Origin: an uncultured Lachnospiraceae bacterium
GTDB lineage: Bacteria; Bacillota; Clostridia; Lachnospirales; Lachnospiraceae
Length of the DNA: 36,213 nt
Direction of reading: 5' to 3'
Assembly (NCBI GenBank): GCA_946536155.1
Contig: CAMNEB010000009.1
Span: 1 to 36,213 of the forward strand
Shown here: in pieces, positions 2,188 to 21,237 of the stretch
Layout: every line of letters begins with the position of its first letter
Numbering within the stretch: position 1 is the first letter of the stretch
Notes under the pieces: generated by a model
Database searches by the model: none
What the model saw: the letters and a program-made list of their open reading frames with translations, nothing else
Told to the model about the DNA's origin: nothing
Made by a program: the position numbers and the translations under genes

Positions 2188-2212
2188 ATATTGAATTGCG
2201 GAGGCTTTGCAG

Positions 2213-4060
2213 ATGAACAGAAAAGGCAACAATTTTATATTTCCGCTTATTACGCAGGTGACTGACGACGGTATAAGATTTTGCCTTGAAACATCATCAA
2301 ATGACTGCGGTATCATCATTTATGATATTGTCTCCGGCAAAGAACTTGAGAAGATCCCTTTCGGTCCGGAAGACCGTATCGGGAATCTCTGCTGCAAGAC
2401 AGTTTCCGGATTTGATGCATCCCGCATCTCTTATGTCTATTATTCGGGAGGAGAGACTCTGACCGATTGCAGGGCGACCGGGCTTCTGGGCGGAAGGGTA
2501 TACGGAAAGCCCGTTGCAGAACCCCTTAAAGCCGTTATTCGCGAAGATTCCTATGATTGGGAAGATGACGCATATCCCCGTATAAGCTTTGAAGAGAGCT
2601 TTTATTATCTGCTCCATGTAAGGGGATTTACCAATTCTCCCTCTTCGGGAGTAAAGCACAGAGGTACTTTTGCGGGGATCACGGAGAAGATAGATCATTT
2701 AAGGTCTTTCGGGATCACGACCCTTGAACTCCAGCCCGCCTATGAATTTATCGAAACGGAATGCAGGCCAGGTATAGATCCTGCCTACGGATACGCCGGA
2801 AGGACGACGGTTCCTTCCGTTCCCGGCAAGCTTAATTACTGGGGTTACAAGCCCGGATATTATTATGCACCCAAACAGGCATATTCATCATCTGATGATG
2901 CCTGCACAGAGTTTAAAGACATGGTCAAAGCTCTCCACAAAAACGGTATGGAGCTTTGCATGCAGTTTCATTTTGCACCGGATTTTCCGGAGTCTGAGGT
3001 CCTTGAGATCCTCAGATACTGGGTGGTCAATTATCATGTTGACGGATTCCACCTGATGGGAATAAACATCCCCATGAGACTGGTATCCTCGGATCCGCTC
3101 CTTGCGGGGACAAAGATCTTAAACGATCATCTGGACAATGTGGATTTCGGATGCATCGGTTCTTCCATGCAGAAGAGATTCATCGGTCTGTATTCGGATG
3201 AGTTTGAGTATCCACTCAGAAGGCTTCTGAAAAGTGATGAAGGCATGGTGTCGGCATCGCTCCTTGCACTCAGATCGAATCCCGGGGATTTCGGACGCAT
3301 AAACTTTCTTTCTTCATACCGCGGATTTACTCTCATGGACCTTGTCAGCTATGACCGCAAACACAACGAAGAGAACGGTGAAGAGGGAAGGGACGGCAGT
3401 GACTGCAACTACAGCTGGAACTGCGGTGAGGAAGGCCCCACCCGCAAGAAGAAGATACGTGAGCTGAGACTCAGACAGATAAAGAACGCTTACAGCCTTC
3501 TGATGCTGGGCGCCGGAACTCCCCTTATCTTTATGGGCGATGAGTTCGGCAATTCCCAGAAGGGCAATAACAATCCCTATTGCATAGATTCACCGGTGAC
3601 ATGGCTGGACTGGAAAAATGCGGATTCTTTTTCGGAGCTTACGGAATTCCTTAAGAAGCTGGTACTTCTCAGGAAAAAACATAAGGTCTTTTGCAAAGAC
3701 AGGGAGCTCTACACCGTTGATTCCGAGAATTGCGGATATCCCGAGATGAGCTATCATTCGGATACCGCATACAGAGTATCGGATGAATACTATTCAAGGT
3801 CCTTCGGCATCATGTACTGTGAGAACTGCGGAAGATCGCTCATATATGCGGCGGTCAACATGAACTGGGAAGAGACCACACTGGCCCTTCCGAGACCTCC
3901 CAAGGGATATGAATGGAGCGTAAGTCTTTCCACGGATCCCGCAGGCGGCAGTATATGCCGTGAGGATGAGTCTTTAAGAACCATACCGGGACGCACGGTT
4001 ACATTTTTTGAAACGGTCCCGAAAAAGTCCGGAAATAAACGATCAAAGGAAGATAAATGA
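2213..4060 (+). CDS. GH13-like protein (isoamylase/GlgX/type I pullulanase-like), predicted catalytically inactive pseudoenzyme
   Basis: Family hallmarks HRGTFAGITEKIDHLRSFGITTLELQP, LNYWGYKPGYYYAPKQAYSS, GTPLIFMGDEFGNSQKGNNNPYCID; catalytic motifs substituted (see findings). Track ORF starts at TTG 2207; ATG 2213 with upstream GGAGG is the likely start. Confidence 0.88.
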   Translation: MNRKGNNFIFPLITQVTDDGIRFCLETSSNDCGIIIYDIVSGKELEKIPFGPEDRIGNLCCKTVSGFDASRISYVYYSGGETLTDCRATGLLGGRVYGKPVAEPLKAVIREDSYDWEDDAYPRISFEESFYYLLHVRGFTNSPSSGVKHRGTFAGITEKIDHLRSFGITTLELQPAYEFIETECRPGIDPAYGYAGRTTVPSVPGKLNYWGYKPGYYYAPKQAYSSSDDACTEFKDMVKALHKNGMELCMQFHFAPDFPESEVLEILRYWVVNYHVDGFHLMGINIPMRLVSSDPLLAGTKILNDHLDNVDFGCIGSSMQKRFIGLYSDEFEYPLRRLLKSDEGMVSASLLALRSNPGDFGRINFLSSYRGFTLMDLVSYDRKHNEENGEEGRDGSDCNYSWNCGEEGPTRKKKIRELRLRQIKNAYSLLMLGAGTPLIFMGDEFGNSQKGNNNPYCIDSPVTWLDWKNADSFSELTEFLKKLVLLRKKHKVFCKDRELYTVDSENCGYPEMSYHSDTAYRVSDEYYSRSFGIMYCENCGRSLIYAAVNMNWEETTLALPRPPKGYEWSVSLSTDPAGGSICREDESLRTIPGRTVTFFETVPKKSGNKRSKEDK

Positions 4061-14852: not shown

Positions 14853-15935
14853 ATGTCCAGAGTTTACAATTTCTCAGCAGGACCCGCAGTATTACCTGAG
14901 GAGGTTCTCAAAGAAGCAGCAGAGGAGATGATGGATTATAAGGGATCCGGTCAGTCCGTTATGGAGATGAGCCACAGATCCAAGGTTTATGACACCATTA
15001 TCAAGGAAGCTGAAGCAGATCTTAGGGAACTCATGAATATCCCTGACAATTACAAGGTATTGTTCCTTCAGGGCGGTGCTTCACAGTTCTTTGCGGAAGT
15101 TCCCATGAACATGATGAAGAACAAGAAGGCCGGATATATCATCACCGGTCAGTGGGCCAAGAAAGCTTACCAGGAGGCCAAGATTTACGGAGAGGCTGTT
15201 GAACTTGCTTCATCCGCAGACAAGACTTTCAGCTATATTCCCGATGTTTCCGATCTTCCTATCACCGATGATATGGACTATGTCTACATCTGTGAGAACA
15301 ACACCATCTACGGAACCAAGTATAAGACCCTTCCCAACACAAAGGGAAAGACTCTTGTAGCCGATGTTTCTTCCTGCTTCCTTTCCGAGCCCGTTGATGT
15401 TACCAAGTACGGTGTCATCTACGGCGGCGTTCAGAAGAACGTAGGACCTGCAGGATGCGTTATCGCTATCATCAGAGAGGATCTCATCACCGATGATGTT
15501 CTTCCCGGAACTCCCACCATGCTCAAGTGGAAGACCCAGGCTGACAATGATTCTCTTTACAATACTCCTCCCTGCTACACCATCTATATCTGCGGCAAGG
15601 TATTCAAGTGGCTGAAGAAGATGGGCGGACTTGAGGAGATGAAGAGGAGAAACGAGGAGAAGGCTAAGATCCTTTATGATTTCCTCGATGAGTCCAAGCT
15701 TTTCAAGGGAACCGTCGTAAAAGAGGACAGATCCCTTATGAACGTTCCTTTCGTTACCGGAAATGAAGAGCTTGATGCAAAGTTTGTCAAAGAAGCTACC
15801 GAGGCAGGTTTTGTAAACCTCAAGGGACACAGAACCGTCGGCGGCATGAGAGCTTCCATCTACAACGCTATGCCCAGGGAAGGTGTTGAGAAGCTTGTTG
15901 AGTTCATGAAGAAATTCGAGGCTGAGAACGCCTGA
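14853..15935 (+). CDS. serC: Phosphoserine aminotransferase
   Basis: VYNFSAGPAVLPEEVL, LFLQGGASQFFAEVPMN, GGVQKNVGPAGC (PLP Lys). Confidence 0.97.
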   Translation: MSRVYNFSAGPAVLPEEVLKEAAEEMMDYKGSGQSVMEMSHRSKVYDTIIKEAEADLRELMNIPDNYKVLFLQGGASQFFAEVPMNMMKNKKAGYIITGQWAKKAYQEAKIYGEAVELASSADKTFSYIPDVSDLPITDDMDYVYICENNTIYGTKYKTLPNTKGKTLVADVSSCFLSEPVDVTKYGVIYGGVQKNVGPAGCVIAIIREDLITDDVLPGTPTMLKWKTQADNDSLYNTPPCYTIYICGKVFKWLKKMGGLEEMKRRNEEKAKILYDFLDESKLFKGTVVKEDRSLMNVPFVTGNEELDAKFVKEATEAGFVNLKGHRTVGGMRASIYNAMPREGVEKLVEFMKKFEAENA

Positions 15936-15962
15936 TAGACAGCCTCTTGAAAGGAGATTCAT

Positions 15963-17129
15963 ATGTTTAAGATCAATTGCCTTAATCCGATTTCCCAGGT
16001 GGGTCTTGCAGATCTTACCTCCGATTTCGCCATCACCGACAAGTTTGAGGATGCAGAGGGTGTACTTGTAAGAAGCGCATCCATGCATGAGCTTGAGCTT
16101 CCTTCATCTCTTCTTGCAGTCGCAAGAGCAGGTGCGGGCGTTAACAATATCCCCCTTGATAAGTGCGCAGAGAAGGGAATCGTTGTTTTCAATACTCCCG
16201 GTGCAAACGCAAACGGCGTTAAGGAGCTCGTTATCGCAGGAATGCTCCTTGCAGCCCGTGATATCGTAGGCGGTATCGACTGGATCAAGGAGAATGCATC
16301 CGATCCCGATATCGCAAAGACTGCCGAGAAGCAGAAGAAGAACTACGCAGGAACCGAGATTGCCGGCAAGAAGCTCGGTGTCATCGGACTCGGTGCCATC
16401 GGTGTCAAGGTTGCAAACGCAGCTCTTCACCTCGGAATGGATGTTTACGGATACGATCCTTACCTGAGCGTAAATGCAGCATGGAATCTCTCCAGAAGCG
16501 TTCATCATGTTGAGAAGGTAGAAGAGATCTACAAGGAGTGCGATTACATCACCATCCATGTTCCCCTTCTTGATTCCACCAAGGGCAGCATCAACCGTGA
16601 AGCCATTTCCATGATGAAGGACGGCGTCGTCATCATCAACTATTCACGTGACCTTCTTGTTTCCGAGACCGATATGCTCGAGGCTCTCAAGAACGGAAAG
16701 GTTGCAAGATACGTATCTGATTTCCCCAATCCCACCACAGCAGGACAGCCCGGAGTCATCCTTACTCCCCATCTCGGAGCAAGTACCGAAGAGTCCGAAG
16801 ACAACTGCGCTAAGATGGCTGTTGAGGAGATCATGGATTACCTCAACAACGGAAACATCAAGAATTCCGTAAACTTCCCCGCACTTGACATGGGTCCCTG
16901 CGACAACAAGGGCAGGATCGAGGTCTTCCACAAGAATCAGGCAAATATGATCACCCAGTTCACCGCAGTCATCGGTGCAGAGAAGATCAACATCTCCGAT
17001 ATGATGAACAAGTCAAGAGGAGACTATGCAGTAACAATGCTCGATCTCGACGATGTTCCCACCGAGCATCTTGTTGAGAAGCTCTCCGCAGCAGAGGGAG
17101 TCATCAGAGTACGTATAGTCAAGGGATGA
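15963..17129 (+). CDS. serA: D-3-phosphoglycerate dehydrogenase (short clostridial-type, C-terminal ACT domain)
   Basis: KKLGVIGLGAIGVKVANAA Rossmann motif, TPHLGASTEESEDNCA, C-terminal ACT-like ITQFTAVIGAEKINISDMMNKSRGDYAVTMLDLD; follows serC. Confidence 0.94.
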   Translation: MFKINCLNPISQVGLADLTSDFAITDKFEDAEGVLVRSASMHELELPSSLLAVARAGAGVNNIPLDKCAEKGIVVFNTPGANANGVKELVIAGMLLAARDIVGGIDWIKENASDPDIAKTAEKQKKNYAGTEIAGKKLGVIGLGAIGVKVANAALHLGMDVYGYDPYLSVNAAWNLSRSVHHVEKVEEIYKECDYITIHVPLLDSTKGSINREAISMMKDGVVIINYSRDLLVSETDMLEALKNGKVARYVSDFPNPTTAGQPGVILTPHLGASTEESEDNCAKMAVEEIMDYLNNGNIKNSVNFPALDMGPCDNKGRIEVFHKNQANMITQFTAVIGAEKINISDMMNKSRGDYAVTMLDLDDVPTEHLVEKLSAAEGVIRVRIVKG

Positions 17130-17648: not shown

Positions 17649-18890
17649 ATGGCTGACGTAAGACCTTTTAATGCATACAGGCCCAAAAAGGGCATGGAAA
17701 GCGTTATCGCCGCACTTCCCTATGATGTTTACAACAGGGCGGAGAGCTGTGAGATCGTTAAGAACAATCCCGAATCCTTCCTTGCGATAGACAGGGCGGA
17801 GACCCAGTTTTCCGATGATGTTGATACATATGACGACAGAGTTTACGCAAAGGCTGCCGAGATGATAAGAGAGAGGATCGATGACGGCCGCTTTGTGCGT
17901 GATGAAGGAGAACCCGGTTATTATCTCTATGAGCTCACAATGGACGGAAGATCCCAGACCGGTATAGTGGCCTGCGCTTCCATTGATGATTATGTGAGCG
18001 GCACCATCAAAAAGCACGAGAATACAAGAGCTGACAAAGAGGTTGACCGCATCCGCCACGTAGATACAACGGGCTTCCAGACCGGGCCTATTTTCCTTGC
18101 CTACAGGCACAATGACATGCTCTCTGCCATCATAAGCGCTGTTAAGAAAGGCGAGGCTGACTGCGATTTTACATCGGATGACGGAATAAGGCACAGAGTA
18201 TTTTCCATAAAGGATCATGATAAGGTGGAAGCCATAAGGCTTGCTTTCTCCGATATGAACGCTCTATATATCGCCGACGGACACCACAGGTGTGCAAGTG
18301 CCGTCAAGGTCGGACTTAAGAGAAGAGAGGAAAATCCCGGATATACCGGAAATGAGGAGTTTAATTATTTCCTCAGTGTCATCTTCCCTGACGATGAGCT
18401 CAAGATAATGGACTACAACCGCGTGATCAGGGATCTGAACGGTCTGTCTGAGGTTCAGTTCTTTAATGAGGTCATCGCAAGGTTTGAGGTCTGTGACGCC
18501 AAGAAATACTATTCTCCCGAGGATAAGGGACTTTTCGGAATGTACATTTCCGGCAAGTGGTACAAACTCAGAGCTCATCATGACCTTAAATCGGATGATC
18601 CCGTAAAGGGGCTTGATGTTTCCGTGCTTCAGGACGGTCTCCTCGGACCTGTTCTCGGCATAGGAGATCCCAGGACGGATAAAAGGATCGATTTTGTGGG
18701 CGGAATAAGAGGCCTTGGGGAACTTGAGAGAAGGTGCAGCGAGGATATGACGGTTGCTTTCTCAATGCATCCCACATCCATCGAGGAGCTTTTTGAAGTG
18801 GCGGATGCGGGGCTTTTAATGCCTCCCAAGTCGACTTGGTTTGAGCCCAAGTTAAGAAGCGGACTCTTCCTTCACAAAATAGATGAATGA
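17649..18890 (+). CDS. DUF1015 family protein
   Basis: VRPFNAYRPKKG...VIAALPYDVYNRAE, LYIADGHHRCASAVKV; association with serC-serA. Confidence 0.88.
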   Translation: MADVRPFNAYRPKKGMESVIAALPYDVYNRAESCEIVKNNPESFLAIDRAETQFSDDVDTYDDRVYAKAAEMIRERIDDGRFVRDEGEPGYYLYELTMDGRSQTGIVACASIDDYVSGTIKKHENTRADKEVDRIRHVDTTGFQTGPIFLAYRHNDMLSAIISAVKKGEADCDFTSDDGIRHRVFSIKDHDKVEAIRLAFSDMNALYIADGHHRCASAVKVGLKRREENPGYTGNEEFNYFLSVIFPDDELKIMDYNRVIRDLNGLSEVQFFNEVIARFEVCDAKKYYSPEDKGLFGMYISGKWYKLRAHHDLKSDDPVKGLDVSVLQDGLLGPVLGIGDPRTDKRIDFVGGIRGLGELERRCSEDMTVAFSMHPTSIEELFEVADAGLLMPPKSTWFEPKLRSGLFLHKIDE

Positions 18891-18907: not shown

Positions 18908-21121
18908 ATGAATAAGAGACTTTATAAATTAATGGACTGGGCCTTTATCGAAGAGGTCATTTACTCGGAGTGCGTCCATCCCCAGGATCTTCTCGGACCT
19001 CATGCCAAGGGTCAGACAACTCTTTTACAGGCATTTTTTCCGGGATCCGAATCGGTAGTTGTCAAATGGAAGGACAGAGGCGAAGCAGGCAAGCCCAACG
19101 AGACCAGAATGGAAGTTGCGGATGATGACGGATTCTACGCACAGCTCCTTCCCACCAAAGATCCCGGTCCCTATACATATTATGTGACCTATGAGGAGAG
19201 GCTCGAGGACGGCAAGACCAGCAGGAAGAAGACTGTTAAGTTCGGCGATCCCTACAGACATAAGAATATCCTGAAAAAAGAAGATATAGACAGATTCACA
19301 CAGGGAACCTGTAATGATGCGGATCTTATGCTGGGTGCCCATCCCTGCACCATCGATGAAGAAGAGGGTGTTCTCTTTGCGGTATATGCGCCTAATGCCA
19401 TGAGGATCAGCGTGGTGGGAGATTTCAATTCATGGGATCCCAGGCTCCATCAGATGTGCAAACGTGAAGATTCCGGTATCTTCGAGCTCTTTGTTCCCGG
19501 AGCAAAGACAGGCGACAGATATCAGTACGAGATAAAGTTCGGAAATTACGAGATCCGCAGATTTTCGGATCCCTATGCCGTTTGCGTCTGTCCCGAAAAT
19601 AAAACGGTATCCGTGGTCGGAAAGGCTGCTGCGGGAAAGCCCGCACAGGCTCCGAAAAAAGCAAAGGCTCAGGATGTTACGGGCCTGCCCATTAGCATTT
19701 ACCAGGCAGATCCCTATTCCTATGCGGGAGGTGAGACTTCAGCCTTTGCAAGGATGAGCGAAGAACTTGTGCCTTATGTGGTCAAATGCGGTTTTTCACA
19801 CATCTGCATCGGCAATATTCTTTCAAGCTCCGGCAGGCATGACAAGACACTGTCCTATTTTGCCCCGGATCCCGCACTCGGAACAGAAGAAGAATTTGAA
19901 AAGCTGGTTAAAACTTTCAGGGACAAAGGAGTTTCGGTAATCCTTGACTGGATCCCTTCGTATTTTGCCCCGGATCAGGGAGGCTTATCCGGATTTGACG
20001 GAACATCTCTTTATGAGCATAACGATCCCAGACAGGGATATGCCCAGGACATCGGTGCATGTCTTTTCAACTATTCGAGCAATACCGTCCGCAATTTCCT
20101 TTTTTCCTCAGGCTTTGCCCTTGTAAGGAAATTCGGTATAGACGGACTCAGAGTCTTCGGAACTGCCAGGATGCTTTATCTTGACTACGGAAAGAGCGAC
20201 TGGGTACCCAACATCTACGGCGGAAATGAGAATCTAGACGCGATCTCATTTCTTCAGGAGTTTAATACCGCCATACGCAAGGCTTATCCCGGAACTCTTA
20301 TGATCGCCGAGGATTCGTCCCTCCATCAGGGAATAACCGATCCCGTAGGCAGAAACGGACTCGGCTTTGATCTTAAGTGGAATGAAGTATTCTATGATGA
20401 TTACAGAGCCTTCATATCACTGGATCCCCTTTACAGGGGCAGGGAGCTTCATTCCCTCGCAGACTCCATGACCTATGCCTTTGTCGAGAATTTCGTCCTG
20501 CCCTTTGCAGGAAATGAAAAGACTGAAAAGGTCGGAAGATTTGAGGATATGCTTCAGGGAGATGATGATGCGAGACAGTCACAGAAGAGGCTTTCCCTAG
20601 GGTACCTGTTCACACATCCCGGCAAGAAACTCATAGGACTTAAGCCGGATGGGTCGGATGAAGCCATCATCACCGCACTCAACCAGCTCTACAAAAAAGA
20701 GCCTGCCCTGAGCATGAACGAATCGGATCCCGAGTGCTTTGAGTGGCTCAGCAATATGAACACTGAGAGCTCATGTGTATCCTTTGTGAGAAAGACAGAT
20801 GATCCCGAGGATATGCTGGTCGTCATCGCAAACTTCTCCGGCATCGAGCAGAATTTCCAGACCGGCGTTCCCTATGAGGGAAAATACAAAGAGATATTCA
20901 CGACGGACGATAAGGCTTTCGGCGGCGGATCTTCGGTCTCAAAATCCATCAGGAAAGCATGCGATAAAAGACTTGACGGAAGGACCCAGTCCATCGCGGT
21001 AAAGATCAGACCTCAGTCACTCATCATCATGAAGTTCATCCCCTATACCGAGGAAGAACTCGAAAAAGTCATAGAGCAGAGGATAAGAAATTACACTCCC
21101 ATCAAAAAGACTAAGAAGTGA
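18908..21121 (+). CDS. GlgB-like (GH13 branching-enzyme family) protein with CBM48-like module, predicted catalytically inactive pseudoenzyme
   Basis: GDFNSWDPRLHQMCK...GIFELFVPG (CBM48-like), VSVILDWIPSYFAPDQGGLSGFDGTSLYEHNDPRQG, MLYLDYGKSDWVPNIYGGNENLDAISFLQEFN; catalytic Asp residues substituted (see findings). Confidence 0.9.
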   Translation: MNKRLYKLMDWAFIEEVIYSECVHPQDLLGPHAKGQTTLLQAFFPGSESVVVKWKDRGEAGKPNETRMEVADDDGFYAQLLPTKDPGPYTYYVTYEERLEDGKTSRKKTVKFGDPYRHKNILKKEDIDRFTQGTCNDADLMLGAHPCTIDEEEGVLFAVYAPNAMRISVVGDFNSWDPRLHQMCKREDSGIFELFVPGAKTGDRYQYEIKFGNYEIRRFSDPYAVCVCPENKTVSVVGKAAAGKPAQAPKKAKAQDVTGLPISIYQADPYSYAGGETSAFARMSEELVPYVVKCGFSHICIGNILSSSGRHDKTLSYFAPDPALGTEEEFEKLVKTFRDKGVSVILDWIPSYFAPDQGGLSGFDGTSLYEHNDPRQGYAQDIGACLFNYSSNTVRNFLFSSGFALVRKFGIDGLRVFGTARMLYLDYGKSDWVPNIYGGNENLDAISFLQEFNTAIRKAYPGTLMIAEDSSLHQGITDPVGRNGLGFDLKWNEVFYDDYRAFISLDPLYRGRELHSLADSMTYAFVENFVLPFAGNEKTEKVGRFEDMLQGDDDARQSQKRLSLGYLFTHPGKKLIGLKPDGSDEAIITALNQLYKKEPALSMNESDPECFEWLSNMNTESSCVSFVRKTDDPEDMLVVIANFSGIEQNFQTGVPYEGKYKEIFTTDDKAFGGGSSVSKSIRKACDKRLDGRTQSIAVKIRPQSLIIMKFIPYTEEELEKVIEQRIRNYTPIKKTKK

Positions 21122-21122
21122 C

Positions 21123-21151
21123 TTGATTTTTAAACGACTAATCTATATAAT
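21123..21151 (+). promoter_or_regulatory. Putative promoter for tRNA-Thr: TTGATT -17 nt- TATAAT
   Basis: Hexamer match and spacing immediately upstream of the tRNA. Confidence 0.6.
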
Positions 21152-21164
21152 TTGTTAAGTCGTT

Positions 21165-21237
<73 letters not shown>

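Follow-up and report, generated by a model that had tools for sequence, protein, structure and literature searches.

The closest described relatives of the protein studied here are the type 1 glycogen branching enzymes (GlgB) of M. tuberculosis (3k1d) and Cyanothece (5gr1), with which it shares homology over its full length and the domain order N1–CBM48–barrel–C. Among non-catalytic proteins, the plant isoamylase ISA2 is a GH13 paralog with a CBM48 that supports an active paralog. GlgD, a subunit without activity, modulates GlgC in Firmicutes (PMC9093745), and the chlamydial GlgA–GlgB fusion carries an inactive branching domain (PMC11046441). Truncation of N1 alters GlgB activity and chain length (PMC6339891), and the glucan sites of the branching enzyme CyBE1 lie on CBM48 and domain C (PMC6243121). 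We found no report of a GlgB or GH13 pseudoenzyme family in the open-licence literature.

Here we describe a glgB-derived gene, whose product we call Q, in a 36,213-nucleotide stretch of DNA (the window) from an uncultured Lachnospiraceae bacterium. Unlike type 1 GlgB, Q has lost its Asp nucleophile, both Tyr and His of region I and the His-Asp pair of region IV. A stretch of ~25 residues after HPGKKL is deleted, and its scores fall below the curated GlgB cut-offs. As with GlgD, an apparently inactive paralog of a glycogen-synthesis enzyme is kept alongside an active copy, but GlgD is paralogous to ADP-glucose pyrophosphorylase and its subunit role is demonstrated, whereas the role of Q is a candidate one. 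ISA2, by contrast, is a plant debranching enzyme by family, and its likeness to Q is one of general description. The chlamydial fusion also contains a branching enzyme domain turned inactive; it arose in a defective pathway when genes fused and were rearranged, whereas Q is free-standing and under selection. The Q family is a pseudoenzyme of glycogen metabolism that is unusual in its repeated origin at one locus.

Results

Q belongs to the GlgB family and has lost catalytic residues

Q is a member of GlgB (GH13_9) by family. Its closest solved relatives are GlgBs, and the match to GlgB 5gr1 (E 8.6e-107) excludes chance resemblance. The first-pass annotation had likened this open reading frame to branching enzyme, and the likeness holds, with all the motifs quoted there present; those read in Q are ILDWIPSYFAPD, FDGTSLYEHNDPRQG, GLRVFGTARML, LMIAEDSSL, LPFAGNEKTEKVGR and HPGKKLIGLKPDGSDEA. 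The annotation had also noted a CBM48-like module and full length, both of which we recover (Table 1), together with a GlgB_N domain that it had not listed. The alpha-amylase domain match of the barrel is weak. Q has the domain architecture and fold of GlgB and falls below the cut-off of all six GlgB models listed among curated families (for example, 446.6 against a cut-off of 463.95 for TIGR01515 and 487.7 against 741 for PRK05402). An AlphaFold2 model derived from an alignment of 29 sequences is confident (pLDDT 86, pTM 0.86), apart from low pLDDT at residues 538–542 in the region IV loop, and superposes on M. tuberculosis GlgB 3k1d with TM scores of 0.83/0.85.

In the PDB alignment, GLRVFGTARMLY of Q lies opposite GIRVDAVASMLY of Cyanothece GlgB, so F417 occupies the nucleophile position; in Cyanothece GlgB this nucleophile is exchanged in entry 6klf (D434A; an offset of 20 by count). 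The same alignment places FAGNE of Q opposite LSHDE and IAED opposite IAEE. We checked eight GH13 invariants, Y300, D335, H340, R403, D405, E458, H525 and D526, in E. coli numbering. Q reads D, D, Y, R, F, E, G and N at these positions, with 3/8 kept (the D335, R403 and E458 equivalents) and 5/8 lost, and its catalytic triad reads Phe-Glu-Asn in place of Asp-Glu-Asp. The replacements first described from the letters alone (nucleophile Asp by Phe, region I His by Tyr and region IV His-Asp by Gly-Asn) and the retained acid/base Glu are all reproduced here. The reported change in the GGEFGQ segment also stands, but it is a deletion of ~25 residues rather than a simple replacement. Because GH13 double displacement requires an Asp nucleophile, Q should lack branching activity.

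Table 1 Features of the Q locus, in window coordinates
Feature	Position	Strand	Remarks
serC and serA	14853..17129	+	Conserved neighbours upstream of Q
DUF1015 gene	17649..18890	+	17 nt upstream of Q; marker of the conserved locus
glgB-derived pseudoenzyme (Q)	18908..21121	+	737 aa, ATG start
N-terminal motif MNKRLYKLMDWAFIEEVIYSE...LLGPH	18908..19003	+	Kept in almost every dead ortholog of the locus and in the majority of intact ones
GlgB_N (N1) domain	18938..19207	+	Residues 11-100; PF22019, E 2e-21
CBM48	19331..19579	+	Residues 142-224; PF02922, E 5e-23
Degenerate GH13 (beta/alpha)8 barrel	19682..20707	+	Residues 259-600
Y300-equivalent	19841..19843	+	Asp312
Region I His (H340-equivalent)	19961..19963	+	Tyr352
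Nucleophile Asp (D405-equivalent; D434 of Cyanothece GlgB)	20156..20158	+	Phe417
Acid/base Glu (E458-equivalent)	20309..20311	+	Kept, Glu468
Region IV His-Asp (H525-D526)	20510..20515	+	Gly535-Asn536
C-terminal all-beta domain (amylase C-domain)	20744..21034	+	Residues 613-709, conserved Trp613; PF02806, E 3.5e-16
Basic C-terminal tail ...EQRIRNYTPIKKTKK	21044..21118	+	>=90% conserved at 68% of sites, genus-wide

The catalytic losses are shared by orthologs, as every one of the 24 genus-level loci has lost at least five of the eight invariants. The GLRVFG motif that the annotation had expected to be conserved is not: Phe occurs at the nucleophile position in the window only, and congeners carry Y, C, I, V, S or E. 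We reject a role for Phe417 itself because the position varies inside the genus; the feature common to the orthologs is loss of Asp, not gain of Phe. Trp613, the aligned counterpart of W655 in Cyanothece GlgB, is present in 24/24 genus loci and 21/23 other dead loci.

Q lies at a conserved locus outside any glg operon

The gene order ilvD-ilvB-serC-serA-DUF1015-glgB, often followed by argH-asd, recurs in dozens of Lachnospiraceae genera, and the genes around Q belong to the synthesis of arginine, serine and branched-chain amino acids. DUF1015 directly follows serC-serA in most of the Lachnospiraceae genera sampled (the window and loci L070-L227), and in the window the DUF1015 gene and Q are probably co-transcribed. 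A search by sequence found no PDB relative of DUF1015, and we found no paper linking DUF1015 to serine in the open-licence literature. A tRNA gene (21165-21237, +) lies between Q and argH and is preceded by a promoter-like match at 21123-21151, a kind of match that is as frequent in shuffled sequence.

We collected 75 loci with a GlgB open reading frame immediately downstream of DUF1015 or serA, a set that is enriched for relatives of Q. Classified by catalytic residues, 28 are intact (two with 7/8 invariants) and 47 are dead, 24 of the latter at the genus level of the window. When genera were sampled via DUF1015 regardless of GlgB, 28 had the gene and 10/28 were dead; the adjacency is thus equally present with intact GlgB (18/28) and is older than the loss. 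The closest intact positional relatives (L091, L092, L100 and L134) have the tail RIR..TP.KK in common with Q, whose own tail is also found in the intact sister orthologs L091 and L134. Three loci (L113, L115 and L118) keep 7–8 of the eight invariants with changed flanking motifs, and they are possibly intermediates toward loss. Intact GlgBs at the locus (L133, L135-L147 and similar) often have long, variable Lys/Ala/Glu-rich C-terminal tails, in open frames of 740–920 aa.

The first 32 residues of most live and dead proteins of the locus share the pattern MxxKLYxLMxWxxIExxxYSE, which was not found in the short GlgB described below nor in sampled GlgBs of other phyla. A profile of the N-terminal motif, searched against three genus genomes, retrieved only Q and its orthologs plus one match at E 0.97, and a general targeting peptide is thus unsupported.

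Catalysis was lost many separate times at this locus

A tree of the neighbouring genes (ilvD, ilvB, serC, serA and DUF1015; 2292 columns, GlgB itself excluded) requires 13 changes between the intact and dead states, at least 10 of them forced by well-supported branches, or 17 when losses alone are counted, although lateral transfer of glgB alone into the old locus could reduce such counts. On this tree, a single origin of all dead copies is rejected (AU test, p=3e-7). The GlgB tree built without the barrel requires 10 changes, at least five of which are forced. The same gene at the same locus died many separate times in Lachnospiraceae. Q falls into the same clade as the four closest intact relatives, with 99–100% support, whether the tree is built from the neighbouring genes or from GlgB; Q descended from a gene that is still intact in sister genera.

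Q is retained under selection with a shifted pattern of constraint

Among the 31 genus genomes searched, full or near-full copies of Q occur in 28 of the 30 other than that of the window. The copy in G301 is divided over two contigs. In G309 a 154-residue N-terminal fragment is all that was found, and G316, a metagenome-assembled genome of 80% completeness, yielded no copy. Named matches to Q come mainly from rumen Lachnospiraceae and include records AC2028 and P6A3. Pairwise dN/dS is ~0.03-0.11 in most pairs, figures that are rough because synonymous divergence is high in several pairs, yet they are far below 1. They are comparable to those of argH and up to a few times those of DUF1015 and serA.

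The ratio of barrel to N-domain divergence is 0.44-0.80 in intact pairs and 1.4-2.7 in genus pairs of matched overall identity. Among the 16 closest relatives, the fraction of sites conserved at ≥90% is 0.70 in the N-domain, 0.78 in the C-domain, 0.88 in the tail and 0.47 in the barrel, compared with 0.10, 0.16 and 0.49 in the N-domain, C-domain and barrel of intact genera. At this locus, intact GlgBs conserve the barrel best among the large domains and vary most in the N-domain, an order that is reversed in the genus. Constraint has shifted away from the barrel and toward the N- and C-terminal domains. Within the genus, GlgB_N is among the best conserved parts, and two segments hardly vary, the N-terminal motif LYKLMDW and the basic tail RIRNYTPIKKTKK. 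CBM48 does not surpass the N and C domains in conservation among the closest relatives. Other dead lineages have a barrel/N-domain ratio of ~1.0; constraint there has only levelled out, and relaxation instead of specialisation may be under way in some of them.

Q combines the loss of essential residues in a complete, foldable protein with purifying selection and conserved presence, as a pseudoenzyme does. The copies in congeners, the dN/dS values and the shift in constraint agree with the original suggestion of a retained dead GlgB rather than decay, and we are highly confident that Q no longer works as a branching enzyme and is maintained by selection.

A second, short GlgB keeps the catalytic residues

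The genus also encodes a short GlgB, in an open frame of ~660–730 aa, in which we found no GlgB_N match above threshold. All congeners fetched have 8/8 invariants in this protein, which answers, at the level of residues, to the separate catalytic glgB that the annotation had envisaged. In the window's own genome it is present as two fragments at contig ends (C30 and C79), and the part between them, where the nucleophile and Glu would lie, is unassembled. A second GlgB occurs in 47/48 further genomes, the exception (G099) having an intact locus copy, and is fully intact, judged by residues, in 20/20 genomes from other dead lineages. By the same measure, Q has an active paralog in the manner of GlgD. 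GlgB redundancy is near-universal; it permits loss and is insufficient alone to explain it. A review lists two or three glgB homologs for some commensals of the gut, among them Blautia obeum and Dorea longicatena (PMC10395257).

Discussion

The best explanation overall, which we hold with slightly better than even confidence, is that Q is a glucan-binding, non-catalytic subunit derived from a dead type 1 GlgB. On this view Q traces back to an active GlgB of the N1-domain kind (type 1) at the serC-serA-DUF1015 locus; its catalysis was lost, whereas the second, short (type 2) GlgB stayed catalytic. Q can no longer form the covalent glucosyl intermediate and would be kept for its non-catalytic surfaces, namely the N-terminal motif, N1 domain, CBM48, C-domain and basic tail. 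The parts kept in Q include the GlgB surfaces for glucan contact and chain length. A subunit or scaffold that binds alpha-glucan and supplies such surfaces is the simplest reading, after the example of GlgD and GlgC within this phylum. Such a protein may dock or tune the N1-less short active GlgB or another glycogen enzyme, a partner mechanism that, drawn by analogy, we put at a little under an even chance. Glucan binding is plausible in view of the CBM48 and the conserved Trp; as conservation of CBM48 in the closest relatives does not exceed that of the N and C domains, protein docking fits better than glucan binding alone. We infer the glucan binding, the identity of the partner and the regulatory role from these comparisons. 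The position of Q among amino acid synthesis genes rather than in a glg operon counts against this reading, as does the levelled constraint in other dead lineages.

Q might instead have left glucans entirely to become a structural or regulatory protein for a locus-linked process involving DUF1015 and serine synthesis. In dozens of genera the gene sits tightly beside DUF1015 and serA/serC, which would suit this role, as would the preference of its 16 closest relatives for conserving the N-terminus, C-domain and tail over CBM48. We consider it unlikely, however, since the adjacency is equally present with intact GlgB and since CBM48 and Trp613 are conserved in most dead lineages.

An enzyme of new chemistry in the old cleft is less probable again. 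In its favour, 24/24 genus loci retain Glu468 together with the AEDSS segment, and most proteins of the locus, intact or dead, conserve several polar residues (D364, E370, R510 and K574); but Glu468 is lost in 13/23 dead loci outside the genus, cleft residues vary within it and the barrel is its least conserved domain. The free drift of catalytic residues and fast evolution of the barrel could mark a functionless relic in slow decay, as could the several other dead lineages without excess conservation of the N- or C-domain. For this genus, the relic reading is already largely refuted by dN/dS (0.03-0.11, with synonymous sites near saturation, in most pairs), and frames intact in nearly all congeners, a confident fold and inverted constraint make it very improbable. 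Residual branching through an altered active site, for which the overall fold and Glu might speak, can be set aside as barely credible, because the nucleophile and region IV Asp are absent, making GH13 double displacement impossible, and the replacement residues differ among close relatives.

The subunit reading of Q extends to a broader proposal, in which Lachnospiraceae repeatedly turn a type 1 GlgB into a dedicated non-catalytic subunit that would act in trans, lending the functions of its N1 domain and CBM48 to a short GlgB of type 2, and the rumen genus would pair dead with live proteins in both branching and debranching, a GlgX-like pseudoenzyme also being kept. We advance this only tentatively and regard it as doubtful in its full extent.

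Pseudoenzymes are usually examined singly. At least 10 independent conversions at one address, with intact orthologs close by in the tree, make the route from enzyme to non-enzyme comparable in replicate. Many Lachnospiraceae genes that are likely to carry the name glgB do not encode branching enzymes. Counts of glycogen genes in metagenomes of the gut and rumen are affected by this, and the finding hints at a further layer of control in bacterial glycogen synthesis.

The GlgX-like protein of the window (617 aa; 2207-4060, +) has lost its catalytic motifs, reading DGFHLMGIN for DGFRFDLAS and SSYRGF for NCHDGF. Full-length or partial matches to it occur in 31/31 genus genomes, one of which has only a fragment of 65% identity. 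The motif loss is present in 12/12 copies read, and GlgX is intact elsewhere.
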